From a virus: a stretch of 20,992 bases of DNA. A program made the translations under genes and the position numbers. Where the stretch lies: IMG/VR virus record IMGVR_UViG_3300008448_000807, positions 1 to 20,992 of that record; one strand, 5' to 3'. Of the stretch, positions 1 through 16,121 are shown piece after piece. The notes below the pieces were generated by a model. It was not told the DNA's origin, did no database searches, and was given only the letters and a program-made list of their open reading frames with translations. Numbering within the stretch: position 1 is the stretch's first letter; the number at the start of each line of letters is the position of its first letter.

Positions 1-615
1 GAGACAGTCATTGCCGTCGGCCCGCAGTTTAAGAACTATGCCGAGGACAATGGGATATTCCACGGCGCGTACGGTCGCAGAACCAATGGCCAGTACGACT
101 ACGCGATCGAGAAACTGAAGAACGATCGCGACACACGGCAGGCTGTTGTCACCATCTGGAACCCAGAGTACGACAACCAAGAAGGTAAGAGAGACTACCC
201 GTGCACTGTCCTCCATCAGTTTAGAATCAGAGACAACAAACTAAACATGAGCGTGTACATGCGATCGAACGACGTGTGGCTAGGAGCAGCGTATGACTTC
301 TTCCAGTTTACGAGGGTTCAACTCGCGATGTGTAGCGTGCTTGGCGTTGAGCCTGGCGCATACGCTCATCATGTTGGGTCTTTGCACATTTACGAGTCAA
401 ACTACGCGGCCGCGAACAACCTTAAGAAAACCGACAAGGTTGAAGCAGTGCCGCCTATCTACGGTGATACGTGGGATGAAGTCAAAGACTCGGCAATAGC
501 GATCCTGAACTCTGTAAAAGATCACAGTTTGTTGGACTCTCTTTCTTCGCAGGAGCGGTGGTATGCTAGTGCCATGATCACAGCGATCGAAAAGAACAAA
601 AGAAAAGAGGCGTGA
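1..615 (+). CDS. Thymidylate synthase family protein, probably dCMP hydroxymethylase-like (5' truncated)
   Basis: The reading frame is open from base 1, so the start lies outside the window; 204 C-terminal residues are visible. Family features seen: an AYG.R segment, TRQAVVTIW, the nucleophile motif YPCT with Cys at fragment residue 68, the MRSND phosphate-binding segment at residues 87-91, and GSLHIYE with His129 and Tyr131. These enzymes transfer a one-carbon unit from methylene-tetrahydrofolate to C5 of a pyrimidine nucleotide. At fragment residue 99 (LGAAYDFF) there is Asp where dUMP-specific synthases have Asn (E. coli N177). T4 dCMP hydroxymethylase also has Asp there and shares the MRSNDV and VGSLH context. 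The family is secure. dCMP specificity and hydroxymethyl rather than methyl transfer are inferred. Its stop overlaps the next ATG by one base. Confidence 0.9.
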   Translation, partial: ETVIAVGPQFKNYAEDNGIFHGAYGRRTNGQYDYAIEKLKNDRDTRQAVVTIWNPEYDNQEGKRDYPCTVLHQFRIRDNKLNMSVYMRSNDVWLGAAYDFFQFTRVQLAMCSVLGVEPGAYAHHVGSLHIYESNYAAANNLKKTDKVEAVPPIYGDTWDEVKDSAIAILNSVKDHSLLDSLSSQERWYASAMITAIEKNKRKEA

Positions 616-803
616 TGAGTGGCGATTGGGATGACGAATACTCTTCACCGATGAAGGAAGCCGCGGTGAGTATGCACGAAATGTACCTCACCTTGCGTGA
701 AGCCGGATTCTCCAGACGGGACGGTCTTGAGCTTATCGCCAAGATGCTAATCACAGGCATTGCAGAAGCCTCGATAGAAGACGACGAAGATGACGAAGAT
801 TGA
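615..803 (+). CDS. Small acidic phage protein, unknown function
   Basis: A 62-residue protein whose ATG overlaps the TGA of the upstream gene (TGATG), a translational coupling arrangement. A GTG three bases upstream could also serve. The middle is a predicted helical pair (MHEMYLTLREAGF, then LELIAKMLITGI) resembling small hypothetical proteins common in actinobacteriophages with an E-x-y-x-x-L-x-x-A-G-F core. The last ten residues are almost all Asp and Glu. No catalytic motif or membrane segment is visible. It sits between two nucleotide-metabolism genes and ends in another one-base overlap, so it is probably co-expressed with them, but its role is not recognisable. Confidence 0.7.
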   Translation: MSGDWDDEYSSPMKEAAVSMHEMYLTLREAGFSRRDGLELIAKMLITGIAEASIEDDEDDED

Positions 804-1285
804 TGGACGATACAAGACCTTCTTGGGATGAGACATGGCTTGCAGTAGCCGAAACTATTGGGCTTAGATCTCGATGCTCGCGCGCGCAGTTAGGCGCCGT
901 GATTGTTTCTAGCGAGCAAAGAATCTGCGCAACAGGTTACAACGGCCCTGCGGCTGATTGGCCTGAACAAGGTACGTGCAGTCTGTGGTGCCCTCGAGCA
1001 AGAGGTGAAGCCCCGCTAGACAATATGTATGATGCTTGCCCAGCGATTCACGCTGAGGCAAACGCGTTGCTATATGTAGACCGCTCGAGTGTCGCCGGTG
1101 GGACACTCTACGTGACGAGCGCTCCGTGCATGCAGTGCGCTAAGTTGATAACAAACTCTGGTCTTGCGCGCGTCGTATGCAGACTGCGTTCTGCCGATCT
1201 ACATCGTAGACCGTACGACGTGTTTGAGTATCTAAAGAAGTGTAAGATCGAACTAACAGTAGTTAAGGACGACGACGTTGAGTGA
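803..1285 (+). CDS. dCMP deaminase
   Basis: A 160-residue zinc-dependent deaminase that would convert dCMP to dUMP, feeding thymidylate synthesis. The zinc and proton-shuttle motif HAE is at residues 83-85 and the second zinc motif PCMQC at 108-112. The N-terminal substrate segment includes AQLGAVIV and CATGYNGP, typical of ComEB/T4 Cd-type deoxycytidylate deaminases. Two extra cysteines (59 and 63) precede the HAE motif, as in enzymes with a structural zinc. The ATG at 803 overlaps the preceding TGA by one base; a TTG three bases upstream is less likely. Next to a dCMP hydroxymethylase-like enzyme, the two would share dCMP as a substrate. Confidence 0.93.
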   Translation: MDDTRPSWDETWLAVAETIGLRSRCSRAQLGAVIVSSEQRICATGYNGPAADWPEQGTCSLWCPRARGEAPLDNMYDACPAIHAEANALLYVDRSSVAGGTLYVTSAPCMQCAKLITNSGLARVVCRLRSADLHRRPYDVFEYLKKCKIELTVVKDDDVE

Positions 1286-3101
1286 CAACGACCTTTCAAA
1301 TGTGCAACTGCACCTTGTTGACAACGTGCAGAAGGCACAGGATTTTCTGCACTGGCTTGGGCAGAGAAGACCGTACAACGCTATCTCGGTAGACACTGAA
1401 ACCGGTGAGCTGCCCGGAAACCCAAGAGATCACGCACTGTCGCCGTGGCACGGCCGTCTTCGTCTCGTGCAGGTTGGTGATGGTGAGCAGGGCTGGTCGA
1501 TCCCGTGGGACGAGTGGTCGGGCGTTTTCTACGAGGCAATGGACAAGTTTGACGGTCCGTTGATCTGCCATAACATCGCGTTCGAGGCGCGCTGGTTTGA
1601 TGTTCAGTCCCGATGGGATATTCCGTGGCATCGTGCACACGACACGATGATTATGGCACACGTTGTTGACCCGCTTGGGTCTGGCGCTCTAAAGCGTCTT
1701 GCCGCTCTTCACATCGACAGTCGCGCAGTTGCTCTACAAGAGACACTCGACACTGAACTAGTTAAGAACGGGTGGACGTGGGGGACGGTTCCCACTAACT
1801 TTACGCCATACTGGTCGTACGGCGCTCTTGACTGCGTTTTGACAACTCGTCTGTGGGAGATGTTCTATAAGCAGTGCGGGCCTGACGGTCCGTATCAGCG
1901 CGCGTACGAGCTTGAGATGGCGACACGCAAGATCGTGACGCGCATGGAAATCAACGGTGCACGAGTTGATCTTGACTACTCACAGAGAAAGTACGATGAA
2001 CTTACAGCGTACACTGAATCTGTCAAGAAGTGGGCGAAGGACACGTATGGCGGAGTGTCTATTACGAGCAACGTTCAGTTGGTCCGCCTGTTTGAGTCAC
2101 TTGGCGCAGAGATCACCGAGTTCACGCCTACAGGTCAGAAGTCATGCACTAAGGACCAGTTGAAGATCCTTGCTCGTGACGGAAATGCTGAAGTGTCTAC
2201 TCTTGCTGACACCGTTCTTAAACAGCGCAAAGCTGACAAACTTGCTGGCACGTACTTCTCTAATTTTCTTACAGAGTCTATTGACGGCATCGTTCACCCA
2301 TCGGTGAAAACTCTCGGTGCTCGTACTTCTCGTATGTCGATCACAAACCCGGCGCTACAAACGTTGCCTAAGGGCGACGATGTTGTGCGCCGCGCCTTCA
2401 TCCCTAAGGACGATGATCATGTGATTATCACGAGCGACCTTGACCAGGTCGAGTTCCGTATGTTTGCGAGTCTGTCGAATGACACCAACCTCATCAATCT
2501 GTTTCATCTTGCCGATGCGACAGGGTCCGACCCGTTCACCGAGATTGGTCGTGAGGTCTACAACGATCCGGGGATGCAGAAATCAGACAAGCGTCGTGGT
2601 CTGATCAAGAGCATGATCTACGGTCGCCTGTACGGCGCTGGCGTTGCTAAGCAAGCGTTGACAGCCGGCGTTGCTGAGATTCAAATGAAGCAAACATCTG
2701 ACGCGTTCGACAACAGATTCCCGGGAATGTCATACTTCCAGAGACAGATAGAAGACATCGGGATGCGAAGACTCAAGTCGGAAGGCCAAGGCTACGTCTA
2801 CACGTGGACTGGTCGCAGATTGCCGTGCGACGAAGGAAGAGTCTACACGCTTGTCAACTATCTCATTCAAGGTGGAGCTGCAGAGGTTTTTAAGTCGAAT
2901 CTTGTAAAGCTCGACCAAGCAGATCTGACAGAAATGTTGATCGTCCCGGTGCACGACGAGATCGTGCTGCAGGCCCCTCGAGAAGATGCTGAGGAGATCA
3001 AGCAACTTGTTAGACAGTGTATGACAACAACCGACGGTTGGGCAGTGCCGCTTACCGCTGACGTTGATGGCCCGCTTGAGACATGGGGTGACAAGTACTG
3101 A
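1278..3101 (+). CDS. Family A DNA polymerase with 3'-5' exonuclease domain
   Basis: A 607-residue replicative polymerase of the Pol I/T7 type without a 5' nuclease domain. Exonuclease motifs: DTE at 39-41, ICHNIAFEARWFD around 96-108, and YGALD at 181-185. Polymerase motifs: A is DLDQVEFR at 387-394, B is RRGLIKSMIYGRLYG at 439-453, and C is HDE at 559-561, so both activities look intact. The residue equivalent to E. coli F762 is Tyr448, as in T7 polymerase. The start is TTG at 1278, eight bases before the upstream stop ends, supported by AAGGA at 1265-1269. No earlier in-frame start gives a better ribosome site. The length is within the usual phage range. Confidence 0.97.
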   Translation: MSDNDLSNVQLHLVDNVQKAQDFLHWLGQRRPYNAISVDTETGELPGNPRDHALSPWHGRLRLVQVGDGEQGWSIPWDEWSGVFYEAMDKFDGPLICHNIAFEARWFDVQSRWDIPWHRAHDTMIMAHVVDPLGSGALKRLAALHIDSRAVALQETLDTELVKNGWTWGTVPTNFTPYWSYGALDCVLTTRLWEMFYKQCGPDGPYQRAYELEMATRKIVTRMEINGARVDLDYSQRKYDELTAYTESVKKWAKDTYGGVSITSNVQLVRLFESLGAEITEFTPTGQKSCTKDQLKILARDGNAEVSTLADTVLKQRKADKLAGTYFSNFLTESIDGIVHPSVKTLGARTSRMSITNPALQTLPKGDDVVRRAFIPKDDDHVIITSDLDQVEFRMFASLSNDTNLINLFHLADATGSDPFTEIGREVYNDPGMQKSDKRRGLIKSMIYGRLYGAGVAKQALTAGVAEIQMKQTSDAFDNRFPGMSYFQRQIEDIGMRRLKSEGQGYVYTWTGRRLPCDEGRVYTLVNYLIQGGAAEVFKSNLVKLDQADLTEMLIVPVHDEIVLQAPREDAEEIKQLVRQCMTTTDGWAVPLTADVDGPLETWGDKY

Positions 3102-3421
3102 TGAACCGATACCTTGAAATGGCTCTAGGGGTCGCCTCGAAGAGCAAGTGCAGACATAAGCACGGTTGTGTGGTTGTTCGTGACGGGCGGATCGTTTCGA
3201 CGTCGACGAATAAGAAGATCGGTGACCCAGCGACGGCGTGGCGAACATCTCATGTTCATGCCGAATTTGCTGCTATCACCGCCGCAGGTTCTCTTGCGGT
3301 CGGGTCGAACGTCTATATTGCCAGAATAGCCGCAGATGGGTCTCCGGCTCCGTCGAAGCCGTGTAAGAAGTGCGAAAGTATACTGTTAAGGTCGAAGGTG
3401 GCAAGGGTGGTGTGGACATGA
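3101..3421 (+). CDS. Second cytidine/deoxycytidylate deaminase-fold protein
   Basis: A short (106-residue) zinc-dependent deaminase-fold protein. It has HAE at residues 53-55 and PCKKC at 87-91, the complete metal and proton-shuttle set, preceded by a strand-rich segment (CRHKHGCVVVRDG) that matches the start of the fold. It is shorter than a canonical dCMP deaminase and lacks the extra cysteines of the upstream one, so substrate is uncertain: a nucleoside, a nucleotide or a base in nucleic acid. The ATG overlaps the polymerase stop by one base and the end overlaps the resolvase gene by four, so it belongs to the same operon. Confidence 0.85.
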   Translation: MNRYLEMALGVASKSKCRHKHGCVVVRDGRIVSTSTNKKIGDPATAWRTSHVHAEFAAITAAGSLAVGSNVYIARIAADGSPAPSKPCKKCESILLRSKVARVVWT

Positions 3422-3882
3422 GGTTTATTTTGGCTGTTGACCCTGGAAAGAAGAGCGGCGTCGCTTTGATTTCCTATGAGAGCGGCCTAGAACCGCGCCT
3501 CTTGGCCTCCGGCGAGTTTCTTATGGAAGAATACCATACTCCGATTCTTGGGGCCATTAGCACAGCCAAACTGGCTGGCGCACAGTTAGATATCGTCTGT
3601 GAGAGGTTCACAATTAACGCTCAGACGGTAAAAAATTCTCAGGCGCCGTTTAGCCTCGAGCAGATCGGCATCTTAAAGTATCTGATGCTCAGCAACGACA
3701 TTGACCCTGGTACTTTGCTGTTTCAGTCACCGTCTGACGCTAAGAAGATGTTTGACAACAGCGCACTGAAGAAACTCGACCTTTGGCATCGTGGTGGAGA
3801 AGGTCACGCGCTGGACGCGATACGCCACGGTCTTCTGCGTCTAGTGAAGATCGGTTGGGCGCCATTGCGGCTCCTTGAGTGA
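3418..3882 (+). CDS. RuvC-like Holliday junction resolvase/endonuclease
   Basis: A 154-residue RNase H-fold nuclease that would cut branched DNA during replication or packaging. It opens with a beta strand and DPGKKSGVAL (Asp8), has a second acidic residue in VCERF (Glu62), and ends its core with GEGHALDAIRHG (His130, Asp133), the RuvC-like catalytic pattern. The start chosen is ATG at 3418, which overlaps the upstream stop as ATGA; an upstream in-frame GTG at 3370 would add 16 residues that match nothing in the fold. It is the last gene before an 86-base gap with a promoter-like sequence, so it probably ends this transcription unit. Confidence 0.8.
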   Translation: MRFILAVDPGKKSGVALISYESGLEPRLLASGEFLMEEYHTPILGAISTAKLAGAQLDIVCERFTINAQTVKNSQAPFSLEQIGILKYLMLSNDIDPGTLLFQSPSDAKKMFDNSALKKLDLWHRGGEGHALDAIRHGLLRLVKIGWAPLRLLE

Positions 3883-3909
3883 ACATACTAAGAAAAAATT
3901 GCATGCGTG

Positions 3910-3939
3910 AAGACATTTCCGCTTAGTATGTGATACAGT
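3910..3939 (+). promoter_or_regulatory. Candidate promoter upstream of the helicase operon
   Basis: In the 86-base gap after the resolvase gene there is an extended -10-like TGATACAGT (3931-3939) and, 18 bases before its hexamer, AAGACA (3910-3915), which matches four of six positions of TTGACA. GCGTG and TTTCCGC lie nearby, and the same words precede the -10 at 13512-13520. A ribosome site (AAGAGG, 3957-3962) precedes the GTG start at 3969. No experimental support. Confidence 0.4.
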
Positions 3940-3968
3940 GACAGATAACGAACGACAAGAGGTGTTGA

Positions 3969-5771
3969 GTGCCAGTTGATGTAGAGCTTAATGATTCGGG
4001 TGAACACATCCGTATCGAGACCGAATGGCGATACAAAGAATTATGCAAGGGGATCCCGGGTGCGACCTGGTCTGCAGCCGACAAGGCGTGGCGGGCGCCG
4101 CTCGGCTGGTCAACATGCCTTGCACTGCGATCGGTCTTCAAGACTGAGCTGCGCATCGGACCAAGACTTGCCGAGTGGGCTACAACCGAACTCAACACAC
4201 GAGTGACGCCCTGCAACGAACTGCGCGAACTTGAGACAGCAGACGGCGACGAGGCGTTGTTCCCTCACCAGCGCGCTGGAGTAAAGTTTCTTGCCGCTGC
4301 CCGTCGCGCATTGCTTGCCGACGAGCCAGGCCTTGGTAAGACAGCGCAAACAATTCGCGCGTTGAAGGAACTAAAAGACAGAGGCGAAGACGTATTCCCA
4401 GCGCTCATCGTGTGCCCTAACACGCTCAAGAAGAACTGGAGACGCGAGTTTGGAATGTGGTGGCCTGGTGTAAACGTCCAGGTCATCAGCGGATCAGCGA
4501 CACAGCGACGTAAACAATTTGCCGAAGAAAACGTTGATGTATACGTCATCAACTGGGAGTCGTTGCGCACGCACTCACGTCTTGCTAGTTACGGGTCCGT
4601 TGCGTTGGCGCGCTGTGTTGAATGCGGCGGCCACGATGAAAAGGTCTCGGAAAATCGCTGTGAGGTTCACGTGCGTGAACTAAACAAGATCGACTTCAAG
4701 GCCGTTGTCGCCGATGAGATTCACCGTTCAAAGGAACCGAAGAGCAAGCAGACACGCGCGCTGTGGGCGGCCACAGGAAAAGCTGACATTCGCTTTGCGC
4801 TGACAGGAACACCGATCGCTAACAACGTTCTAGACCTATGGCCGATTCTGCATTGGCTGTCGCCAAATGAATGGCCTAGCAAGACGCGCTGGATCGATCG
4901 CATGGTTGACACTATGTTGAACGCGTTTGGTGGAATGATGGTGCTAGGCGTCAAGCCGCATATGCACGATGAGTTCTACGCGGCTATCAACCCACGGATG
5001 CGCAGAATGCTTAAGGCAAAGGTGCTACCGTGGTTGCCGCCAGTGATCAAGGAACGTCGCGACGTAGAAATGTCTACAAAGCAGAAAAAGGCGTACGAGC
5101 AAATGCGTGACGTCATGATCGCGCAGTTGGAAGGTGGCGAGGCGCTAACTGCTCCAAGCCCTCTTACGCAGGCGACGCGTCTGCTACAGTTTGCCAGTTC
5201 ATACGCTATGGTTGACGTAGACGAGTTTACGGGCGAGATCGCCGTCAAACTGTCAGAGCCATCGTGCAAGGTTGACGCGTTGATGGACGACATCGACGCT
5301 GGCGACTTTGGAGATGACTCGGTTGCCGTCTGCGCCGTATCACGTCAGCTCATCGAACTTCTCAGCGCCCGCCTTGAGAAAGCAAAGATCCCGCACGGAC
5401 TAATCACTGGTGCACAAACAGAAGAAGAGCGCCAAAAGGCTATCGATGATTTTCAGAATGGAAGAATCAAGTGGATTCTTTTCACGGCGCAAGCCGGAGG
5501 TGTCGGCGTTACATTGACAGCGGCTCGCAGACTCATCATGCTTCAGCGTCCGTGGTCACTTGTCGATTACAAACAGGCTCTTGACCGCGTGCACAGAATC
5601 GGTAGCGAGATCCACGACTCCATCGTGATCACCGACTACGTCACTGACGGGACGATCGAGGAGCGCGTTATTCAGGTTCTAGATACCAAGGCCGACAACT
5701 TCGAGCAAATCGTACGAGACAAAGACCAACTTCTCAAGATGTTGAGAGACGACAAGACAGGATCACTGTGA
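3969..5771 (+). CDS. SNF2-family (SMARCAL1/HARP-like) DNA helicase/translocase
   Basis: A 600-residue superfamily 2 ATPase likely acting in fork remodelling or annealing. Residues 1-80 resemble a HARP-like DNA-binding segment. Helicase motifs: FPHQRAGVKFL near 98-108, Walker A DEPGLGKT at 118-125, Ia IVCPNTLKKNW near 147-157, DEIH at 249-252, LTGTP at 278-282, and near the C terminus QAGGVGVTLT and QALDRVHRIG (motifs V and VI). A cysteine-rich insert (C216, C219, C231, H234) just before motif II could bind zinc. The start is GTG at 3969 with AAGAGG six bases upstream. Its stop overlaps the nuclease start as GTGA. Confidence 0.93.
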   Translation: MPVDVELNDSGEHIRIETEWRYKELCKGIPGATWSAADKAWRAPLGWSTCLALRSVFKTELRIGPRLAEWATTELNTRVTPCNELRELETADGDEALFPHQRAGVKFLAAARRALLADEPGLGKTAQTIRALKELKDRGEDVFPALIVCPNTLKKNWRREFGMWWPGVNVQVISGSATQRRKQFAEENVDVYVINWESLRTHSRLASYGSVALARCVECGGHDEKVSENRCEVHVRELNKIDFKAVVADEIHRSKEPKSKQTRALWAATGKADIRFALTGTPIANNVLDLWPILHWLSPNEWPSKTRWIDRMVDTMLNAFGGMMVLGVKPHMHDEFYAAINPRMRRMLKAKVLPWLPPVIKERRDVEMSTKQKKAYEQMRDVMIAQLEGGEALTAPSPLTQATRLLQFASSYAMVDVDEFTGEIAVKLSEPSCKVDALMDDIDAGDFGDDSVAVCAVSRQLIELLSARLEKAKIPHGLITGAQTEEERQKAIDDFQNGRIKWILFTAQAGGVGVTLTAARRLIMLQRPWSLVDYKQALDRVHRIGSEIHDSIVITDYVTDGTIEERVIQVLDTKADNFEQIVRDKDQLLKMLRDDKTGSL

Positions 5772-6727
5772 CAATCAACGAAACTCCGGTTGAGCTCCGC
5801 CGCGAGCCACTGAGAATCTCCAACTCAGAGATTCAGACATTCAAAGACTGCAGAAGAAAGTGGTGGCTAAACTACTACCGCAGACTTCAGCCGCAGACGC
5901 AAAACTTCACCGGCGCTCTTGCGCTCGGTTCGCGAGTTCACTCTGCGCTTGACATGTACTACTCGACTGGTACTCCATTGCTCGAGGCGTACGCTCACTT
6001 CGTACAGCTCGACAAGAAGGCGCTCATGGAAAGCTTCCGTGACACCATGGAACTCGAGACAGAAGCCGAACTCGGCAGAATCATGCTCGAGGGTTACCTT
6101 GACTGGGTCAACGAAAACGGTATCGACGCTGATCTTGAGATGATCTCGACAGAAGAAATCATCACCATGCCTATGTTTGAAGGCAGGGTAGAACTTCAAG
6201 GTAAACTTGACATGCGTGTTCGCCGTAAGGCAGATGGTGTTCGCATGTTCCGCGACTTCAAGACTGTTGGCGGATCATTCACCGAGTTCGCTGCACTAGC
6301 GCACATGAACGAGCAGATCTTGACATACATGCTTCTTGAGGCGGCGCAGAACAAGGAAGGCGAGCGCAGTGAAGGTGGCATCTTTACGATGCTGAAAAAG
6401 GTCAAGCGCACCGCCAACGCAAAGCCGCCGTTCTACGATCAGATCGAGGTTCGACACAACACCTTTGCGTTGAGAGCGTTTTGGAACAGAATTCATGGTA
6501 CCGTAGGCGACATGCTCGCGGTGCGAGACGCATTGGACGAAGGACAAGATCATCACTTTGTTGCATACCCTCGGCCAAGCCGTGATTGCAAATGGAAGTG
6601 CCAGTTCTTTGCAGTGTGCCCGTTGTTTGACGACGGTAGCGCTGCAGAGCACGCGATCGCTGAGCTGTATACGCAAGGCGATCCGTATAAGTATTACGAA
6701 TCAACAGAGATGAAAGGAAGTGAATGA
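5768..6727 (+). CDS. PD-(D/E)XK nuclease, RecB/Cas4-like with predicted Fe-S cluster
   Basis: A 319-residue exonuclease-like protein. It begins with the family hallmark S-x-S-x-I-x-x-F-x-x-C-R-x-K-W at residues 18-32. The nuclease core shows GKLD at 145-148, DFKT at 163-166 and a QxxxY motif (QILTY) at 183-187. Four cysteines fit the AddB/Cas4 iron-sulfur arrangement: C28 near the N terminus, then C274, C278 and C284. It could resect DNA ends for the recombination proteins downstream. Nothing suggests a CRISPR role, as there is no array or cas1. The start is GTG at 5768, four bases inside the helicase gene; the end overlaps the ATPase gene as ATGA. Confidence 0.92.
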   Translation: MTINETPVELRREPLRISNSEIQTFKDCRRKWWLNYYRRLQPQTQNFTGALALGSRVHSALDMYYSTGTPLLEAYAHFVQLDKKALMESFRDTMELETEAELGRIMLEGYLDWVNENGIDADLEMISTEEIITMPMFEGRVELQGKLDMRVRRKADGVRMFRDFKTVGGSFTEFAALAHMNEQILTYMLLEAAQNKEGERSEGGIFTMLKKVKRTANAKPPFYDQIEVRHNTFALRAFWNRIHGTVGDMLAVRDALDEGQDHHFVAYPRPSRDCKWKCQFFAVCPLFDDGSAAEHAIAELYTQGDPYKYYESTEMKGSE

Positions 6728-7485
6728 CCATGAGTGGAGTACAGCGATCGCTTACCCTCATGGTGTATGGTGAATCAAAGGTCGGAAAGTCGACGTTTGC
6801 AGTCACCGCACCATACCCGCGTCTAATGCTTGACGTTGAAGGTGGGCACAGGTTCCTACCTATCAACGTCAAGTACTGGGACCCGTTGCGCGAGGAGCCG
6901 CCTGCGGCTGACGGAACGTGGGACACCTGCGTTGTCAACGTCACCGAGTACGATACGGTTCTCAAGGCGTACCAGTGGCTTCAGATCGGACGCCATCAGT
7001 TCAAATCATTGATCATCGACTCGGTTTCTGAGTTGCAGGTCAAGTGCATGGACAACATCGCGGGAACAAATCAGATGCAGATGCAACAGTGGGGCGAACT
7101 TCTTCGCCACATGGGCGCGTTGCTTCGCGATCTTCGCGACCTGACAATGCACGCCACCAATCCGCTGGAAGCCGTCGTGCTGACAGCTATGGCGCGTCAA
7201 GGTCAGGACGGGCGTTACCGTCCGTACCTTCAGGGTCAACTTGCAATTCAGGCTCCGTATTTCTACGACATCCTCGGCGCTATCAACGTCGAAGAGTTCA
7301 ACAATCCGGACCCGACACAAGGACCCTACAAAGCTCGCCGTATGTACGTCGAGCGCACCAACCAGTACGAGGCCGGCGAGCGCGTTCAAGGCCGCCTCGG
7401 TAAGATCGTCGAGCAAGGCGACCTCAGCGTCGAACGAATGCTCGATATCGTTTTCGGACCTCGTCCGGATCAGCAAGCAAAGTAA
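6724..7485 (+). CDS. Sak4-like RecA-fold ATPase (AAA_24 type)
   Basis: A 253-residue single-domain P-loop ATPase. Walker A is GESKVGKST at residues 16-24 and Walker B is LIIDS at 96-100, followed by a Ser/Glu-containing sensor segment. The size and position between an exonuclease and an SSB-like gene are typical of phage Sak4 recombinases, which anneal or exchange single strands with a partner SSB. The start at 6724 overlaps the nuclease stop as ATGA and has GAAAGGAAG just upstream; a second in-frame ATG at 6730 is possible. Confidence 0.88.
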   Translation: MTMSGVQRSLTLMVYGESKVGKSTFAVTAPYPRLMLDVEGGHRFLPINVKYWDPLREEPPAADGTWDTCVVNVTEYDTVLKAYQWLQIGRHQFKSLIIDSVSELQVKCMDNIAGTNQMQMQQWGELLRHMGALLRDLRDLTMHATNPLEAVVLTAMARQGQDGRYRPYLQGQLAIQAPYFYDILGAINVEEFNNPDPTQGPYKARRMYVERTNQYEAGERVQGRLGKIVEQGDLSVERMLDIVFGPRPDQQAK

Positions 7486-7513
7486 CCAACACAGAAAGAC
7501 ATAGGTAAACACA

Positions 7514-8101
7514 ATGAGCACACTTAATTGGGGTGACCTCGTCAAGGAGGCAGGTGACGTCGGTGGGTACGACCCGCTGCCCGACGGCGACTACGACCTC
7601 GTGATCGTCGAGGCACAGGCTAAGGCCACTCAGACCGGCAAGACGATGTTCGCCGTCAAGGCGCAGGTCACGACAGGGGCGCACGCAAAGCGTCTCGTGT
7701 GGGACAACCTGGTGGTCTCGACCGACAACCCGAACGCGCTCGGAATCTTCTTCCGTAAGATGAACGCGCTCGGTCTCGGCAAGGACTACTTCGCGACCAA
7801 TCCGACCAACGCACAGATCGAGCAGACCCTCAAGGGTCGTAGCTTCCGCGCGCAGGTTGGTAGCCGCACCTGGCAGGGACAGAAGAAGAACGAGATCAAG
7901 ACGTACTACTCGATCCCGACAGCGTCCGCTCCTGTTCCGCCGATGGCTGCAGCTCCGGCACCGGCCCCCGCGCCCGCTCCGGCACCTGCCCCGGCGCCTG
8001 CACCAGTTGCAGCGCCCGCTCCGGCTCCTGCTCCGGAAGCCGCCCCGGCTCCCGTCGCCGCCGAGGTTCAGACACAGACACCGCCGGCCGCTCCGTTCTG
8101 A
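7514..8101 (+). CDS. Single-strand DNA-binding-like protein with Pro/Ala-rich tail
   Basis: A 195-residue protein. Residues 1-135 form a compact beta-rich domain (PDGDYDLVIVEA, then KTMFAVKAQV, then YYSIP) like the DUF669-type proteins that serve as phage SSB next to Sak4 ATPases. Residues 138-195 are a low-complexity Pro/Ala tail ending in Pro-Phe. Host SSBs also carry disordered tails ending in Pro-Phe that recruit partners, but here the usual acidic residues before the tip are missing. Base use is more GC-rich and codon choice stronger than in the neighbours, consistent with high expression. A strong hairpin follows the stop. Confidence 0.75.
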   Translation: MSTLNWGDLVKEAGDVGGYDPLPDGDYDLVIVEAQAKATQTGKTMFAVKAQVTTGAHAKRLVWDNLVVSTDNPNALGIFFRKMNALGLGKDYFATNPTNAQIEQTLKGRSFRAQVGSRTWQGQKKNEIKTYYSIPTASAPVPPMAAAPAPAPAPAPAPAPAPAPVAAPAPAPAPEAAPAPVAAEVQTQTPPAAPF

Positions 8102-8118
8102 CGAGCCGCTGTTCTCTA

Positions 8119-8156
8119 GTGGTCGCCCGCGATACGAAGGTGTCGTGGGCGGCCAC
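8119..8156 (+). terminator. Strong stem-loop after the SSB-like gene
   Basis: The arms 8119-8132 and 8143-8156 can form a 14-pair stem (12 Watson-Crick, two G-U) around a 10-base loop. No T run follows, so it would be an atypical intrinsic terminator, a processing or stability hairpin, or a translational element for the gene starting at 8183. It lies in an 81-base non-coding gap, rare in this compact region. AAGGA at 8171-8175 is the ribosome site of the next gene. Confidence 0.55.
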
Positions 8157-8182
8157 TTGAGCATCACACAAAGGATGAATCA

Positions 8183-9391
8183 ATGAAGATTTTAATGACA
8201 GGGTTCACTGCTCTTCAGATCAACACAGAGCATAGAACAATCAAAAAGATCGACGTGCCAGCGTCGATCGTCGAAGCTCTCGAAAGCGTTGGCCATCAGG
8301 TTGATTGGCGACGCGTCACGCCAGGTGAAGATCTATCGTCATATGACGTGATCTGGGTAAACCTCGGCCCACTAAACTCTCTTAACGGCCGACAGGGCGC
8401 TATGGGCGCGCTGTACGCTCTTAGCTCTGGTATCCCGGCTGTTGGTTTCTTTGACGACTGGCAGTTTTCAGCCGTGTTCAACGCGTGCCGCTCGCTAGTC
8501 CGTCACCCAGAGATTCTGTACAAGTATCTCTTGTCTGGTTCGGCGCTGCGAGGTTCTGAAGACGCCACTTACTTCTCAAAGGCAGAAGCCGACGCTGCAC
8601 TAGAAAGAATCGTTGCTGCTAATCCCGACGCCGCAAAGAAGTGTGCTGTCGGTAGATACTTCTTCAACGACAATGACGATAACATCAAGGCGCACGAAGG
8701 CCAATTGGTACAAACCGCCCAGGCTCTTCTCGGTGAGCGCTGGTCACACGGGCTTGTACCAGTGTGCCCGATGTATTCATTCGGCGACAGGTCACTAGTG
8801 CGAAAGAGAATGCCTGCTGAAATGGCAGGGATCGAAGCGCTAGACCCGAGCTCAACGATCTTCAATATTCTGTCGTCAGCTATTCCGATGCCGCCGTCTG
8901 AAAAGAAGAAGGCGTGGGTTCTTGGGGCCCTCGTCCCGCACGACACGTGGCTCGAAAAGAAAAACCCTGAATGGCCTGTAGAGATCGTCGGTAGCCGCAA
9001 ACTCATCAGAAAGTTTGGCGGACAGCGTTTTGACACAGAGGAAGACGTGCTTTCGTTCTACAACGAACATTGGGGCATTCTTTCTCCGCCGTACCCGCAC
9101 GCTGGCTGCGGTTGGTGGAGAAGCCGGTTCATGTACGCCGCTCGTGTAAAGTCAATTCTTGTCACCGACAAGGGTGAAGGCAAGCCGCTTGGCGCACCGT
9201 ACTCGTTGACGATCAAGCAGGTTGAGTCGATGTCCGACGACGATCTTGCCGGCGCTGCTAACGCGCAATCCGATGCCTTGCGTGCTCACATGCCCACGTA
9301 TGATTCGTTTGTTGAACACTGCAATAGGATCGTGCACCGTGCGTTGAATGAAGACAAGGGACTGAGGATAAACCCAGACGGTAGCAGGTGA
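8183..9391 (+). CDS. Predicted GT-B-like glycosyltransferase, possible DNA-base glycosyltransferase
   Basis: A 402-residue protein that reads like a two-domain GT-B enzyme: an N-terminal alpha/beta start (MKILMTGFTA), a DYDVIWVNLGPL-type strand near 53-65, and FFDDW at 89-93. A second Rossmann-like half starts around residue 244 (AWVLGAL), with EIVGSRK near 267-273 and a late GWWRSRFMYA to ILVTD segment (310-329), where a donor-binding arginine would be expected. The order is reminiscent of T4 beta-glucosyltransferase, although overall identity is low. The next gene has the same layout. I did not recognise a specific family; the glycosyltransferase call and any DNA substrate are inferences. 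Confidence 0.5.
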   Translation: MKILMTGFTALQINTEHRTIKKIDVPASIVEALESVGHQVDWRRVTPGEDLSSYDVIWVNLGPLNSLNGRQGAMGALYALSSGIPAVGFFDDWQFSAVFNACRSLVRHPEILYKYLLSGSALRGSEDATYFSKAEADAALERIVAANPDAAKKCAVGRYFFNDNDDNIKAHEGQLVQTAQALLGERWSHGLVPVCPMYSFGDRSLVRKRMPAEMAGIEALDPSSTIFNILSSAIPMPPSEKKKAWVLGALVPHDTWLEKKNPEWPVEIVGSRKLIRKFGGQRFDTEEDVLSFYNEHWGILSPPYPHAGCGWWRSRFMYAARVKSILVTDKGEGKPLGAPYSLTIKQVESMSDDDLAGAANAQSDALRAHMPTYDSFVEHCNRIVHRALNEDKGLRINPDGSR

Positions 9392-10425
9392 TGAAGTCAA
9401 TCGCTATCTCAGGTATGACCGCGTCGCAGTCGTCGTACCGATCATTCCATAGCAAGGCAAGCTTCATAGGCGTTGTCGCGTCCGAACTAAAGGACAGCGG
9501 TGTCGCTGTTCACTTCATAGAACCGAGCGTTCTACTGAAGAAAAGTGACCTAGATCAGTACGACCACGTTCTACTTGGCGTCGCTCCGATGCTAAGTCTT
9601 ACTGCAAACAAGGCGTACGGCGTTCTTCACATGATCAACCTGTTGAAGGACGACGGCAGTCTTGCACTATTTGTTGACGCGCCGGAACCGGCGAAGATCG
9701 CGGCAAGCCTTCGTGCTATAGATAGAAAGCCCGAAGACATCGTCAAGCCTTTCTACGCGGCTAGAAAACAATATGCCGACGTTGCAGGCAACCGTAAGAT
9801 CATGGCATCGGTGATCGCAGGCGCACAGGCGCTGGCGACAGGTTGGGTCTACACAACGCTGTACCCGTCGACGCCGTTCACCTCTAATGAAAACGTTGAA
9901 AGCCAATTATTCGGCGCGACGCGTGACGTAGTCCAAGGTGTTCAGATCGACTCATTTCTTCTTAACACCGAGTTGAACACGGTGCCTAAGGCGCGTGGTG
10001 GGTATTGGACCGTCGACAACTCAAAGGCAAAATGGTTTAGGTCACTTAAAAATACCCTTGGCCACGAGGTCGTTGAGATGAAAAGCAACAGACTGTCGAC
10101 AGACTCAGACGTAGAAAAACTAATAGTACGCTCATCAGGCGCGATCGTCAGTCCGCAAGACGACGGGACGCTGTGGTGGAGCTACAGAATGTCGCAAGCT
10201 CTAAACAACGACACGCCGGTGGTAAGTGACTGGAAAATTACGTCCATTCTTGGAGATTCGTGGTCGTTACTGCCGGCAAACGTAGAGGAAATGGATTACG
10301 TTGACATCTACGAACTTTCCGTAGACCAACGCAAAAGATACATCGCCGCTCTTGCCAGCAGGCAAGACGCACTACAGACACTGAAGAATGGATTAGGTCA
10401 TGGCAGACAACGTGCTATTTGGTAA
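9391..10425 (+). CDS. Second predicted GT-B-like protein, paralogue of the upstream gene
   Basis: A 344-residue protein with the same apparent architecture as its neighbour: an N-terminal strand (SIAISGMTAS), DYDHVLLGVAP-like segment (QYDHVLLGVAP at 57-66), LFVDAPEP at 93-100, and a C-terminal GTLWWSYRMSQ segment at 259-269 followed by PVVSDW. The WW-x-x-R pattern is shared with the upstream protein. Two tandem diverged copies suggest sequential sugar transfers or a heteromer. The start is ATG at 9391, overlapping the upstream stop by one base; a GTG three bases earlier is possible. The gene end overlaps the next gene by 26 bases. The function is inferred. Confidence 0.45.
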   Translation: MKSIAISGMTASQSSYRSFHSKASFIGVVASELKDSGVAVHFIEPSVLLKKSDLDQYDHVLLGVAPMLSLTANKAYGVLHMINLLKDDGSLALFVDAPEPAKIAASLRAIDRKPEDIVKPFYAARKQYADVAGNRKIMASVIAGAQALATGWVYTTLYPSTPFTSNENVESQLFGATRDVVQGVQIDSFLLNTELNTVPKARGGYWTVDNSKAKWFRSLKNTLGHEVVEMKSNRLSTDSDVEKLIVRSSGAIVSPQDDGTLWWSYRMSQALNNDTPVVSDWKITSILGDSWSLLPANVEEMDYVDIYELSVDQRKRYIAALASRQDALQTLKNGLGHGRQRAIW

Positions 10426-10885
10426 ATGGCTGGAAAAGACACGTCAACTACAGACGGATGTGTACAACGTCGACTACGCGTCGTTCCATAGCGACGAGCA
10501 TGACGACCTAAGAACCCTCATCGAGTACATCCGATGGAATATGCTTGCCATCGACGACGAGCTTGCCGAGGTGCGTAAGGCTATCTCATGGAAGCCGTGG
10601 CAGCACGACGACCCGTATGCCGACCGTCACGAGATCCTCAAGGAATGCGTTGATGTTCTGCACTTTGTAGCGAACATCCTGTGCGCCGCAGGGGCCACGG
10701 ACGATGAGCTTGATCGCGAGTATCTTGCTAAGATGCAGAAGAATGCTGATAGACAAAAGAACGGCTATCGAGTTCTTGACAGTGGTGTCAAGTGCACCGC
10801 GTGCTTCAGAGCTCTTGACGACTACGACGTGGACGCGTGTCTCGAGTCGTCTTGCCCTCAACGGAGCACTGGCGGTGGTTCATGA
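10400..10885 (+). CDS. Dimeric dUTPase/MazG-like all-alpha NTP pyrophosphatase with Cys-rich tail
   Basis: A 161-residue protein. The metal-binding helices carry DDELAEV (Glu54, Glu57) and EILKECVDVLHF (Glu78, Glu82, Asp85), and the core ends with N-A-D-R-Q-K-N-G-Y (115-123), which matches the dimeric dUTPase branch of the all-alpha NTP pyrophosphatases. These hydrolyse dUTP, and sometimes dCTP, to the monophosphate, protecting the genome from uracil or supplying dCMP. Residues 132-152 add C132, C135, C147 and C152, a probable zinc-binding tail not usual in the family. Its overlaps with both neighbours suggest one operon. Confidence 0.78.
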   Translation: MADNVLFGKWLEKTRQLQTDVYNVDYASFHSDEHDDLRTLIEYIRWNMLAIDDELAEVRKAISWKPWQHDDPYADRHEILKECVDVLHFVANILCAAGATDDELDREYLAKMQKNADRQKNGYRVLDSGVKCTACFRALDDYDVDACLESSCPQRSTGGGS

Positions 10886-12233: not shown

Positions 12234-13475
12234 ATGAGCAATCCCACCTTCATTGACTGCAACGGTCTTGCTGGCTTTATGAGCCTCGGGTTCGTGAGAT
12301 CCGGACTCGATATGACGGTCCGAACGGGCACTCTTAACTTTGGTAACCCGGTTGCCGAGGTGAATAGAAAACACCTTGGCGAACAATGGACGTCGTTCTT
12401 CTCTGAAGACCCAAACGATTGGCCTGACACGAGCGCTGACGTTGTTCTTGGTTGCCCGCCATGCTCTGGTTGGTCGCTGTGGTCTGGCCCAGCGAACCGT
12501 GGCCCCGACGCTAAGGCCCACGAGCACACGCGTGCGTTCATGAAGTACGCTGCCCGGATCAAACCAAAGATGGTCGTGTTTGAGTGCGTGCAGCAGGCGT
12601 ATACGCAAGGCCGAGCCGTGATGAATCAATACCGCGACATGCTCGAAGAGCTCTCCGGTAAGAAATACGACCTGTATCACGTTAAGCACAACAATCTAAT
12701 GGTCGGTGGATTCTCGTACCGCATGCGCTACTTCTGGGTGGCTGTCGAAAGCGGTATGCCTTTCGGCGCGCACGCTGAAATGCCGAAGGAAATGCCAAAG
12801 ATGATCGACGTCATCGGAGATCTCGAGAACCTTGAAATCACGTGGAACAGACAGAAGTACAACGCTGAACCGTCGAAGTTTGTTGCTGATCTAAGAAATG
12901 AAGACGGCTACGTCGACGGCCACATGAATAGAACAAACCTCGAGTCGCAGAGAATCCAAGAGATCTTCGACATTCTCGGTAACGAAGGTTGGAAGCCTAT
13001 GGCCGCGCTGAACGTTGCTCTTAAAGAGGCTGTCGAGAAGAACAACAACACGTTCCCGCAGTCATGGGCCACCAAGGAAGAGAAGATTCGTCTAAACGAC
13101 TTCTACATGGGTTTCTCGCTTCCGGCTCGTTGGGACGCGAACTCGTTCTGTCACGTTATGACAGGCAGTGCTCTTGATCACATCGTGCACCCGACACAGC
13201 CGCGCCGTATCACGCACAGAGAAGCCGCTAGAATTCAAGGTCTGCCCGACAATTGGGAATTTGTCAGTGTCAACAACTACTCGGCTCTTGGGGCCACGTG
13301 GGGCAAGGCAGTGGCCGTCCAGGCGGCGACATGGATCGGTCAAGCAACGGCGGCGGCTTTAGAAGGTCAACCAAACGGCCCGCAGGGTGAGTTGATCGGC
13401 GAACGCGAATGGCTTTTGGACACTGACAAGGGCTTTAGCCGCAACTTCGTGAAGAAGAACTTCTACCAAGAATAA
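12234..13475 (+). CDS. C5-cytosine DNA methyltransferase
   Basis: A 413-residue class I methyltransferase. Motif I is FIDCNGLAGFMSLGF (residues 6-20, an F-x-G-like S-adenosylmethionine loop), motif IV is GCPPCSGW (73-80, nucleophile Cys77), motif VI is FECV (116-119), motif VIII is RMRYFWV (163-169), motif IX is ITHREAARIQGLPDNW and motif X is GATWGKAVAV. Motif VI usually reads ENV; here it is ECV, keeping the catalytic Glu117. The target recognition domain between VIII and IX is about 150 residues. Phages use such enzymes to evade restriction. GAGGA at 12223-12227 precedes the ATG. No nuclease partner is adjacent, so it is an orphan. Confidence 0.9.
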   Translation: MSNPTFIDCNGLAGFMSLGFVRSGLDMTVRTGTLNFGNPVAEVNRKHLGEQWTSFFSEDPNDWPDTSADVVLGCPPCSGWSLWSGPANRGPDAKAHEHTRAFMKYAARIKPKMVVFECVQQAYTQGRAVMNQYRDMLEELSGKKYDLYHVKHNNLMVGGFSYRMRYFWVAVESGMPFGAHAEMPKEMPKMIDVIGDLENLEITWNRQKYNAEPSKFVADLRNEDGYVDGHMNRTNLESQRIQEIFDILGNEGWKPMAALNVALKEAVEKNNNTFPQSWATKEEKIRLNDFYMGFSLPARWDANSFCHVMTGSALDHIVHPTQPRRITHREAARIQGLPDNWEFVSVNNYSALGATWGKAVAVQAATWIGQATAAALEGQPNGPQGELIGEREWLLDTDKGFSRNFVKKNFYQE

Positions 13476-13549: not shown

Positions 13550-14062
13550 ATGCAATCTTTTCTTGTATCTACAAATTCGTTTGAAGAAACGGCCGCGGTG
13601 CTTGACAACAAGCGCCTGCACAAGCAGACCCTTGAGGCGTGGCAATGTCTTCTCAATATGTGCGGGCTTGACCCCGACGGCAACGACCGTGCGCCAAAAG
13701 GCTGGTCAAGTCACCCTGTAGTCAAGATGTGGCGAGGGCATGAGACGCTACTTGTCTCCTACATCACGGCTACGTACTTTGAGTGGCGGTCTCGTGGGTA
13801 CAAGTCTACGCTCCTCGAGAAGACACTACGTACCTACGACACCGCTGTGTCACTTGGTAGAATATCTAGTGACATTACGTTGCCGTTGTGGATGCATGAC
13901 CGTACGTACTTTGAGAACCTGTGCTCAACTCACCGTGTCGCGCTACTGAACAAGAACTACGAATGGTATTCGCAGTTCAAGTGGCCAGAAGACACTGGAA
14001 CATGCCCTCCGGGGTACGAGTACCTGTGGCCGCACCAAGACGGCTACGTAGTAGTGGCTTGA
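13550..14062 (+). CDS. Pyrimidine dimer DNA glycosylase-like protein (Pyr_excise/MSMEG_6728 type)
   Basis: A 170-residue protein with the pattern of the Pyr_excise (T4 endonuclease V-related) family seen in actinobacteria: an N-terminal FLVSTNSFEETAAVLDNKRLHKQ segment with the LDNKRL core, EAWQCLLNM, then HPVVKMWRGHE (HP-x-x-x-M-W-R-G), a following LLVSYITATYFEWRSRG helix and a Trp/Tyr-rich C terminus. Members are predicted to remove UV photoproducts, but most in this branch are uncharacterised. It has its own promoter-like region and is followed by about 100 non-coding bases, so it may be a single-gene unit. The family call is moderately secure, the activity less so. Confidence 0.72.
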   Translation: MQSFLVSTNSFEETAAVLDNKRLHKQTLEAWQCLLNMCGLDPDGNDRAPKGWSSHPVVKMWRGHETLLVSYITATYFEWRSRGYKSTLLEKTLRTYDTAVSLGRISSDITLPLWMHDRTYFENLCSTHRVALLNKNYEWYSQFKWPEDTGTCPPGYEYLWPHQDGYVVVA

Positions 14063-14996: not shown

Positions 14997-15125
14997 GTTT
15001 TGAAGCGCCTTGTTTAGCGCGTCAACTGTAGCTTCAAGAATAGCGATCTTCTGTGCCTGCTGTGCTATCTGGTTTGTGAGGCTTAGAACGATCTTGTCGA
15101 TATCAAGTTCTAGGTTGTCTGACAT
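14982..15125 (-). CDS. Tiny coiled-coil protein of the tail operon
   Basis: A 47-residue protein. It starts MSDNLELDIDKIVLSLTNQI and continues as a Gln/Ala/Leu-rich helix with heptad character (QKIAILEATVDALNKAL). The first 20 residues closely match the beginning of the gene at 16121 (MSNVQLDVNKIVESLVNQI), so the two are paralogues. The ATG overlaps the glycosyltransferase TAA by one base, and the stop overlaps the WhiB stop on the other strand. Small helical proteins in tail operons sometimes act as trimerisation aids or chaperones, but that role is not shown. Confidence 0.75.
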   Translation of the reverse strand: MSDNLELDIDKIVLSLTNQIAQQAQKIAILEATVDALNKALQNKEEN

Positions 15126-15919
15126 TACTCAGTCTCCGTCTGTTTGTTTAGTTCTTCAAATCTGCTGTCTATCATATCACTGTATTGTGACGAAATAGCG
15201 GCTACTAGGTCTTGGATTAGCGCGTTTCTTTGCCGTTGCGCCGTTGACGGCCCGACGTGCTGCTTATACAGAAGCCTATTGATGTGAGCAAATTTTGTCT
15301 CAAGGAACGTTCTTACAACAAGTTCGTAGTCGTCGGCAACAACGTACGCAGGGTTGTGTCCGTTAAGTTTTCTATAGACGTCGGCTCGCCACGCGCGTAC
15401 GTGGTTTGGTGCTGACACGATGTGCTTCATCGTGACCGCGTTAACTTCTGGCGCTGACATTACCCACACTCCGTACTCGTCAGACCAATAGTCTGACCCA
15501 TAGCCAAAACCCCAACCTTCTGGGTAGCGACCGGACTGGCCATCGGCAAGAATTTCACACCAGTCCGAGTAGACAAATCCAACCTCTGGATCCTCAAACG
15601 CGCTAGCGATCTCGGCAAGACAGTCCGGCGTCAGTTCGTCATCATGATCTAGTTCAACAAGAATGTCGCCCTTAGCAACCATAAATGCGTTGCGCTTGAT
15701 TTCTCCAATCGAGCCGGAGTGAACGTGCGATCTGTACATTGCGATCTTGTAGCGCTCGTCGGAACAGAAACCGTACAACTGGCGCCACGTCTCGGTATTG
15801 GTGGAATCGTCCCATACAACCCATTCCCAATCTGTGAGCGTCTGAGCCTTGAGTGATGCCCACGTTCTGGCGAGGATTGACTTGTCGGTGTTATAGGTCG
15901 GGGTAATGATTGAGATCAT
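15125..15919 (-). CDS. Family 2 (GT-A) glycosyltransferase
   Basis: A 264-residue GT2 enzyme. The N terminus SIITPTYNT (3-11) is the nucleotide-binding start, ELDHDDELTPD (89-99) contains the DxD metal motif (Asp91-His-Asp93), and ADDYELVVR (195-203) supplies the probable catalytic acidic residue. It would transfer a sugar from a nucleotide-sugar donor. Its location in the tail-fibre operon suggests modification of virion proteins or host-surface polymers. The start is the ATG at 15919, which overlaps the upstream TGA by one base; a longer open frame from 15955 would add 12 residues that lie before the conserved strand. Confidence 0.9.
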   Translation of the reverse strand: MISIITPTYNTDKSILARTWASLKAQTLTDWEWVVWDDSTNTETWRQLYGFCSDERYKIAMYRSHVHSGSIGEIKRNAFMVAKGDILVELDHDDELTPDCLAEIASAFEDPEVGFVYSDWCEILADGQSGRYPEGWGFGYGSDYWSDEYGVWVMSAPEVNAVTMKHIVSAPNHVRAWRADVYRKLNGHNPAYVVADDYELVVRTFLETKFAHINRLLYKQHVGPSTAQRQRNALIQDLVAAISSQYSDMIDSRFEELNKQTETE

Positions 15920-16121
15920 CAAGACTCCGTAGGAGCGGTGGACTCTGGTTGCCATAGTTCGGCGGGATTAGGGCTCGGCGCAATCCAAGTTTCCCCGTCA
16001 AGCGTCCAGCCAAATGATGCTTGCGGGTGTTCGTCGCAGGAAAGCAACGTGTGGCCTTCTGGGAAATCTGATTTACGAGCGATTCAACAATCTTGTTGAC
16101 ATCTAGTTGTACATTGGACAT
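15919..16121 (-). pseudogene. Disrupted tail-operon gene: coiled-coil start fused out of frame to a W/G-rich tail
   Basis: From ATG 16121 (AGGAG site upstream) the frame reads MSNVQLDVNKIVESLVNQISQ, the paralogue of the 47-residue protein, but then loses family-like sequence and runs 29 bases into the glycosyltransferase gene. In the -1 frame, open from 16083 to a TGA at 15919, there is coherent coding: FPEGHTLLSCDEHPQ, then GWTLDGETWIAPSPNPAELW, ending exactly on TGATG coupled to the glycosyltransferase start. The two halves thus look like one gene joined by a frameshift near 16056-16068 (TTTCCC region), or two genes fused by a deletion. Programmed frameshifting, a real mutation, or a base-calling error are all possible. 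Confidence 0.6.

Follow-up and report, generated by a model that had tools for sequence, protein, structure and literature searches.

A probable T4-like hydroxymethylcytosine supply and glycosylation system with an exchangeable decorator slot in a virus related to Gordonia phages

Closest described systems and the studied locus

The described systems closest to the locus studied here are those of phages T4 and RB69. T4, with gp42, gp1, gp56, cd, alpha-gt, and beta-gt, makes hydroxymethyl-dCMP, limits dCTP and dUTP, and then glycosylates its DNA. RB69 has an arabinosyl-hydroxymethylcytosine system, in which ORF055c and ORF53_52c are linked to UDP-arabinose supply in PMC6024577. The locus belongs to the virus record IMGVR_UViG_3300008448_000807 of IMG/VR, whose positions 1 to 20,992 were analyzed; this whole stretch of 20,992 bases is called the window. 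One replication block on its plus strand contains genes for a thymidylate synthase (TS)-fold enzyme, a dCMP deaminase, two glycosyltransferases (GTa and GTb), a MazG-family pyrophosphatase, and a C5-cytosine DNA methyltransferase (C5). It is probable that they represent a T4-like hydroxymethyl-dCMP supply combined with post-replicative glycosylation by a swappable decorator.

In the proposed pathway, the TS-fold enzyme would convert dCMP to 5-hydroxymethyl-dCMP, and an adjacent P-loop kinase, encoded just outside the window, would begin its conversion to the triphosphate. The dCMP deaminase and the MazG/dUTPase_2 enzyme would deplete dCMP, dCTP, and dUTP, and with these pools depleted the polymerase would incorporate hydroxymethylcytosine. 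After replication, GTa, and probably GTb too, would attach to the hydroxymethyl group one or two sugars taken from a nucleotide-sugar donor, and the sugars would protect the DNA against nucleases, those of restriction included. The content of the transferase slot is exchangeable among relatives, and the supply genes stay constant. Sequence and structure prediction give the presence and order of the genes, an Asp signature in the TS-fold enzyme, the GT-B folds, and the homologies; we infer from them all activities, the extent of replacement, the identity of the sugar (plausibly a furanose), and the purpose.

The Asp-type TS-fold enzyme, the dCMP deaminase, the gp56-like dUTPase_2 enzyme, the nucleotide-kinase-type gene, and the pair of GT-B transferases, nearest to beta-gt by structural re-alignment with VIA-align, are shared with T4. 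Unlike T4, the virus has a kinase whose C-terminal part is weakly uracil-DNA glycosylase (UDG)-like, transferases in which no sequence similarity to those of T4 was detected, and a C5-methyltransferase in the module; its genes are in one replication block, and the phages concerned are actinobacterial. The transferase lineage, the host group, and the exchangeable decorator are what differs from T4, the supply logic being the known one.

Of the isolates in the phage collection, Actinomycetia phage DSL-LC01 is closest to the window. This phage, from lake water in China, has a genome of 129,469 bp and covers 28% of the window at 76% identity. The proteins are 62% (TS), 64% (deaminase), 82% (polymerase), 91% (RecA-like), 73% (MazG), and 68% (C5-methyltransferase) identical between the two. 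The identity of the glycosyltransferases is much lower, 31% and 34%, and falls to 21-26% for the Gordonia phages. The host of the window virus is probably actinobacterial, because an orthologue of a WhiB-annotated gene and relatives among Gordonia phages fit such a host. The block GTa-(x)-GTb-MazG-C5-WhiB, plus small extra genes, is common to the Gordonia phages and DSL-LC01. Unlike the window, DSL-LC01 has a UDP-galactopyranose mutase (UGM) gene between the transferases, and the Gordonia phages have further genes there and keep the transferase block and the TS block apart.

All genes named in the initial annotation were found on the plus strand, with Pfam and PHROG matches far above chance or, for the transferase-like pair, by structure models. 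The module consists of the following features.

1..615, plus strand: last 204 codons of a predicted dCMP hydroxymethylase, truncated at the 5' end by the window start (PF00303, E=4e-22; Asp at the Asn177 position, MRSNDVWLGAAYD)
800..1285, plus strand: dCMP deaminase (PF00383, E=9.5e-19; PHROG dCMP deaminase, E=2.5e-41; HAE and PCxxC motifs in the sequence)
7514..8101, plus strand: single-strand DNA-binding protein (SSB)-like protein that bounds the decorator slot on the left (match to PHROG single strand DNA binding protein, E=6.7e-12)
8183..9391, plus strand: GTa, GT-B glycosyltransferase, predicted hydroxymethylcytosine-DNA glycosyltransferase (AlphaFold model, Foldseek, VIA-align, neighbours of relatives)
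9388..10425, plus strand: GTb, GT-B glycosyltransferase, predicted paralogue of GTa (AlphaFold model, VIA-align, homology to GTa)
10400..10885, plus strand: MazG/dUTPase_2-family pyrophosphatase, predicted dCTPase/dUTPase, T4 gp56-like (PF08761, E=8e-12)
12234..13475, plus strand: C5-cytosine DNA methyltransferase, beyond the initially annotated range 1-10885 (PF00145, E=5e-22)

Substrate of the TS-fold enzyme

The full-length synthase gene is found at positions 8324-9181 of locus L076 (L numbers denote loci). L076, like L024, is part of IMG/VR contig 3300031758_004756, and over 10,606 bp its identity to the window is 100%. In enzymes of this fold, Asn at the position of Escherichia coli Asn177 gives uracil specificity and Asp gives cytosine specificity. 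The alignment shows Asp at this position, instead of the Asn expected of thymidylate synthase proper, in the window, DSL-LC01, the three Gordonia phages (Sixama, Phendrix, and GMA2), one metagenomic phage, and T4 gp42. Asp is also present in 74 of the 76 TS rows of loci L019-L129, which include near-identical viruses and represent 55 distinct sequences; the remaining two both derive from a single frameshifted gene of L022. The pattern used to retrieve TS loci did not cover this position. The catalytic Cys is kept in 112 of 113 aligned TS rows, and the remaining row is a gapped fragment.

The best PDB match of the DSL-LC01 orthologue, among the best 60 of 127 matches, was the CMP 5-hydroxymethylase MilA (5b6d, E=2.2e-18), which has the same Asp and whose alignment spans residues 67-216 only. 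The best thymidylate synthase among the matches listed followed at E=3.8e-17. MilA acts in antibiotic biosynthesis, unlike the phage enzyme. Judged from the Asp and these matches, the TS-fold enzyme probably uses a cytosine substrate. It is the transferases that favor a hydroxymethylase rather than a methylase, the Asp signature being insufficient for this choice.

Kinase and control of the nucleotide pool

The initial annotation noted that no hydroxymethyl-dCMP kinase was visible. This apparent gap arises because the edge of the fragment cuts off the upstream gene. In L076, positions 7338-8336 encode a 333-residue P-loop protein directly upstream of the synthase gene, which it overlaps by 13 bases; since this contig matches the window exactly over the shared 10,606 bp, the virus population represented by the window does have the "missing" kinase. 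In 55 loci TS and Pol are syntenic and 900 bp or more precede TS; the kinase gene is directly upstream of TS in 52 of these and overlaps it in 49. The deaminase gene lies between TS and the polymerase in 71 of 78 loci. A kinase-annotated gene adjoins TS in Sixama and DSL-LC01; one small gene lies between them in Phendrix, and an unannotated gene occupies the place in GMA2.

The kinase matches the PHROG thymidylate kinase family (E=3.5e-14). The profile of the actinophage kinases also finds RB69 ORF045c (E=3.4e-6), a likeness to the RB69 system. The proteins presumed to serve arabinosyl-hmdCMP synthesis include one with homologs among thymidylate kinases, according to PMC8056088. The C-terminal extension of the L076 kinase is weakly similar to the UDG superfamily (PF03167, E=0.0068, under the cut-off), and may possibly be a base-reading domain.

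The MazG-like protein of the window and T4 gp56 both match PF08761 (dUTPase_2). A profile of the MazG family built from 51 IMG/VR members without T4 ranked T4 gp56 first (E=1.2e-9) among 264 open reading frames (ORFs) from T4 and T4-like stretches. The gene at 10400-10885 is therefore predicted to encode a gp56-like dCTPase/dUTPase.

The glycosyltransferase pair

Sequence searches recognized neither transferase. GTa had no Pfam match up to E=1 and GTb had one weak unrelated match (E=0.0066); of two PDB profile searches with the transferases, one gave nothing up to E=1 and the other three chance-level matches. AlphaFold models of the two proteins have a mean predicted local distance difference test score of 85.4 (GTa) and 91.1 (GTb), and the nearest structures of both models are mostly GT-B glycosyltransferases. 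The top PDB match of GTa with Foldseek was T4 beta-glucosyltransferase (BGT; 1qkj, E=1.1e-6). VIA-align re-aligns the 1000 best chains of Foldseek, so that the absence of a family there carries no information. It placed T4 BGT first for GTa (1nzd, Z 17.2, root-mean-square deviation 4.0, 305 aligned) as well as for GTb (1qkj, Z 18.0, root-mean-square deviation 3.9, 297 aligned), the next family for GTb being SenB (Z 16.4).

On the evidence of their sequences, GTa and GTb are a diverged paralogous pair (hhalign E=9.9e-36). GTa has an invariant Asp92, and GTb an invariant Asp97. GTb possibly adds a second sugar. Together with the Asp position of the TS-fold enzyme, the kinase-like gene overlapping the synthase gene, and the dUTPase_2 profile that finds gp56, the VIA-align result for both transferases supports the T4-like logic initially proposed.

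Co-occurrence of the module genes and the exchangeable slot

Of the 132 IMG/VR loci, 50 were compared, one per contig. TS was found in 43 of these contigs, C5-methyltransferase in 37, and GTa in 30, after GTa matches below 100 bits were set aside as GTb cross-matches or second pieces. TS accompanies GTa in 30 of 30 contigs, a figure biased by the many contigs that were retrieved via TS; the 11 GTa contigs retrieved via GTb all hold TS as well.

The whole block could be compared in 16 loci, each of which includes 1.7 kb or more ahead of Pol and reaches a gene beyond the slot; several are near-identical, and the set represents few independent lineages. The kinase, TS, deaminase, GTa, GTb, MazG, and C5 genes are complete in 12 of the 16. 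L105 lacks GTa and C5. In L060 and L061, kinase, TS, deaminase, GTa, MazG, and C5 are all missing together, and GTb is kept right after the SSB-like gene. L067 likewise keeps GTb and lacks TS, deaminase, GTa, MazG, and C5; the 1.7 kb available before Pol does not suffice for a judgment on the kinase. Neither PF00303 nor PF00383 gave a match in these three sister contigs, which are fragments of 17-44 kb. Because GTb is kept in three contigs without TS, its acceptor may differ, and need not be hydroxymethylcytosine.

The slot follows the SSB-like gene, and MazG comes next where the locus extends far enough. Its content differs between relatives, as listed below.

Window: GTa-GTb
DSL-LC01 and L112: GTa-UGM-GTb
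L047, L049, L053, and L059: a 416-residue protein matching no family of Pfam or PHROG, an APH-like kinase, a HAD phosphatase, and a nucleotidyltransferase, then GTb
L075, L077, and L085: the start of the set with the 416-residue protein
L105 and L113: GTb alone
L116, L118, L122, and L124: other genes, with glycosyltransferase matches at most sub-threshold
L121 (12090-14676) and L126 (9912-11899): myo-inositol-1-phosphate synthase and an amino acid:DNA transferase-like gene

In L121 the myo-inositol-1-phosphate synthase has a Pfam match of E=5.6e-37, and the L126 protein is 88% identical to it. The amino acid:DNA transferase-like proteins match PF18724 with E=2.8e-8 in L121 and E=2.2e-5, just under the cut-off, in L126, and are 37% identical to each other. 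MazG was not seen beside the slot in these two loci. That the slot may be occupied by a predicted member of a family whose name refers to DNA modification supports DNA as the acceptor. The kinase and the nucleotidyltransferase in the slot of L047 were also considered as homologues of RB69 052c and 053c, and were not retained, with weak matches only (E=0.0011 and 0.11).

Neighbours of GTa relatives and the sugar donor

In Morganella phage Rgz1 (L010:5372-8776), the GTa homologue gp40 is inside an RB69-like UDP-arabinose module. It is flanked on one side by an arabinose-5-phosphate isomerase homologous to RB69 ORF055c (E=1e-102) and on the other by a protein homologous to both ORF052c (1.4e-105) and ORF053c (7.2e-76), followed by homologues of ORF051c and ORF050c. 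This arrangement is a further likeness to the RB69 system (PMC6024577). Unlike RB69, GTa has no detectable similarity to the proposed arabinosyltransferase ORF003c, and the window has no homologue of a UDP-arabinose gene. Homologues of ORF055c and ORF053c/052c (E<=1e-3) were found neither in the window nor in other loci except the T4-like ones.

The GTa relative of Rgz1 is a candidate for a second family of DNA arabinosyltransferases. Several T4-like groups, including two Proteus phages, have UDP-arabinose genes, and their arabinosyltransferase is described as not known in PMC8056088. GTa relatives are candidates for this enzyme; those found here belong to Morganella and Providencia phages.

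A search with the Erwinia phage FBB1 homologue as the query (E<=0.001) gave 31 phage records with a GTa relative. A UGM homologue adjoins it in 24 of the 31 (FBB1, 19 Aeromonas, 2 Stenotrophomonas, C48C1, and DSL-LC01), which correspond to about four lineages, as redundancy is high among the Aeromonas and Stenotrophomonas records; the avDM4 pair would span the record ends. The remaining records are that of Rgz1 and two each of Providencia, Sixama, and Manatee Spring. Since UGM produces UDP-furanoses, some members of the GTa family plausibly use a furanosyl donor. In the window virus the sugar donor may come from the host or from the genome outside the window.

GTa relatives adjoining UGM homologues in T4-like and Kyanoviridae phages are mostly annotated as hypothetical (L009:4937-7062, L012:4896-7077, and L013:10001-12033). 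In Lactobacillus phage ATCCB (MK504445.1, 34345-37388), a TS-fold gene lies ~1.2 kb from a UGM gene, perhaps another furanosyl base system.

The C5-methyltransferase

The C5-methyltransferase tends to accompany the module, and its catalytic Cys and motif VI Glu are kept in all 26 aligned homologues, the window included. TS without C5 was observed in eight contigs. Four of these (G031, G033, G035, and G046) seem to end before the C5 place, and the other four (G016, G040, G012, and G013) have apparent room for it. C5 without TS was observed in G009 and G011, both fragments starting downstream of the TS place. Its substrate may be residual cytosine, early DNA that is still unmodified, or something of a new kind. 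The implication initially drawn from this gene, some unmodified cytosine, is only one option.

Alternative explanations

Several observations weigh against a T4-like pathway. The evidence consists of sequence and predicted structure. For the supply genes, the lead of MilA over thymidylate synthases is narrow, the Asp alone does not separate a hydroxymethylase from a methylase, and the kinase is not recognizably T4 gp1 (profile match E=0.053 over 21 columns, not significant). For the transferases, no sequence similarity of GTa or GTb to T4 BGT, T4 alpha-glucosyltransferase, or RB69 ORF003c was detected; ORF003c gave no hmmsearch match and an hhalign E of 0.053 or worse. The structural lead for GTa is small (SenB Z 16.2 vs BGT Z 17.2). 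With Foldseek, GTb has nothing below 1e-3; its first row is a LanGT2 chimaera (E=1.4e-3), and T4 BGT is absent from the best 50 rows. The slot of the window has no sugar-nucleotide gene, and UGM was not found in the window. To these are added the retrieval bias in the co-occurrence of GTa with TS, the persistence of GTb in L060, L061, and L067, and the C5-methyltransferase, which would have little to do were every C hydroxymethylated.

That persistence, in contigs also lacking deaminase, MazG, and GTa, would fit transferases that decorate a virion protein or the host surface and not DNA. In addition, GT-B enzymes act on a wide range of acceptors, the scores of SenB and PimA for GTa come near that of BGT, and the weak Foldseek matches of GTb are of mixed function. 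We regard this explanation as unlikely in view of the position of the transferase genes in a replication block, the first rank of T4 BGT by VIA-align for both proteins, the GTa homologue in the UDP-arabinose module of a T4-like phage, and the amino acid:DNA transferase-like gene that the slot can hold. An ordinary thymidylate supply, in which the deaminase produces dUMP, the TS-fold enzyme dTMP, and the kinase dTDP while the transferases act elsewhere, is quite unlikely. Although the trio of kinase, TS, and dCMP deaminase matches such a pathway by gene order, the public annotation reads thymidylate synthase and thymidylate kinase, and the complete DSL-LC01 genome has only one PF00303 gene, the simple form of this pathway is rejected or at least weakened by Asp in place of Asn in 74 of 76 rows. 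The best PDB match is, if narrowly, a CMP hydroxymethylase, and the absence of these genes is coordinated with that of MazG, GTa, and C5.

A TS-fold enzyme can also produce 5-methyl-dCMP, as in phage XP12, and the Asp signature fits any dCMP-using member. The DNA would then carry 5-methylcytosine and the transferases would act on something else; the presence of a C5-methyltransferase is compatible with this. Methylcytosine has no acceptor hydroxyl, yet all GTa contigs contain TS and a GTa relative belongs to a DNA-sugar module, which makes this route highly improbable. The chance is slighter still that modification is post-replicative, with the C5-methyltransferase methylating, a TET/JBP dioxygenase oxidizing, and the transferases glycosylating sparse hydroxymethylcytosine. 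TET systems exist in phages, and the C5-methyltransferase, with its catalytic residues kept, is in the same block. However, PF12851 (Tet_JBP) gave no match over the cut-off and sub-threshold matches in two among 22 contigs (six >110 kb; a set excluding the window virus's own record and DSL-LC01), by which this route is rejected or weakened, and C5 is missing from the four TS-positive contigs with apparent room.

With hydroxymethyl-dCMP supply and glycosylation as the preferred explanation, a wider reading can be put forward tentatively; we consider it possible, and rather doubtful as a whole. There may be a large clade, made up of actinobacteriophages and related viral contigs, with a constant hydroxymethyl-dCMP supply, in which the decorator is swapped between SSB and MazG. 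GTa would be a separate DNA glycosyltransferase lineage, often using a furanosyl donor from UGM to give galactofuranosyl-hydroxymethylcytosine, and L121 and L126 would attach an inositol-derived group through the amino acid:DNA transferase-like enzyme. To our knowledge, neither galactofuranosyl-hydroxymethylcytosine nor inositol-derived DNA bases have been described yet. Among the open-licence PMC titles returned, none was on a hydroxymethylcytosine system in actinobacterial phages.

If the preferred explanation holds, T4-style cytosine glycosylation would extend to phages of actinobacteria. The lineage has sequenced isolates suitable for a direct DNA assay, namely phage DSL-LC01 and the Gordonia phages Sixama, Phendrix, and GMA2. 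With its varied contents, the shared slot lends itself to comparing which kinds of sugar modification overcome which defences.

Other features of the window

Two further small genes are found in or near the supply genes.

612..803, plus strand: small conserved ORF between synthase and deaminase, in the same place in many syntenic relatives
3101..3421, plus strand: second, short deaminase-fold protein (PF00383, E=4.3e-12)

The second deaminase-fold family is found in the window and 23 loci, several from the same virus, and only part of the loci carry one. It is possible, from the Pfam match, that it is an auxiliary (deoxy)cytidylate deaminase, and hydroxymethyl-dCMP is one conceivable substrate. 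The range 1-10885 also holds orthologues of proteins annotated in DSL-LC01 as Pol I, RuvC-like resolvase, helicase, PD-(D/E)XK nuclease, and RecA-like protein.

A pyrimidine dimer DNA glycosylase is encoded beside the module at 13550-14062 (PF03013, E=2.1e-14), the family of T4 DenV. A GT2-family glycosyltransferase gene (PF00535, E=7.2e-19) at 15125-15955 on the minus strand, at the edge of the opposite-strand genes, is probably unrelated to DNA modification. Positions 16455-18338 contain a tandem array with a 159-bp unit, 11.9 copies, and 80% matches. The array sits inside a 741-residue ORF (16327-18552, minus strand) among the opposite-strand genes, which are probably tail-related.

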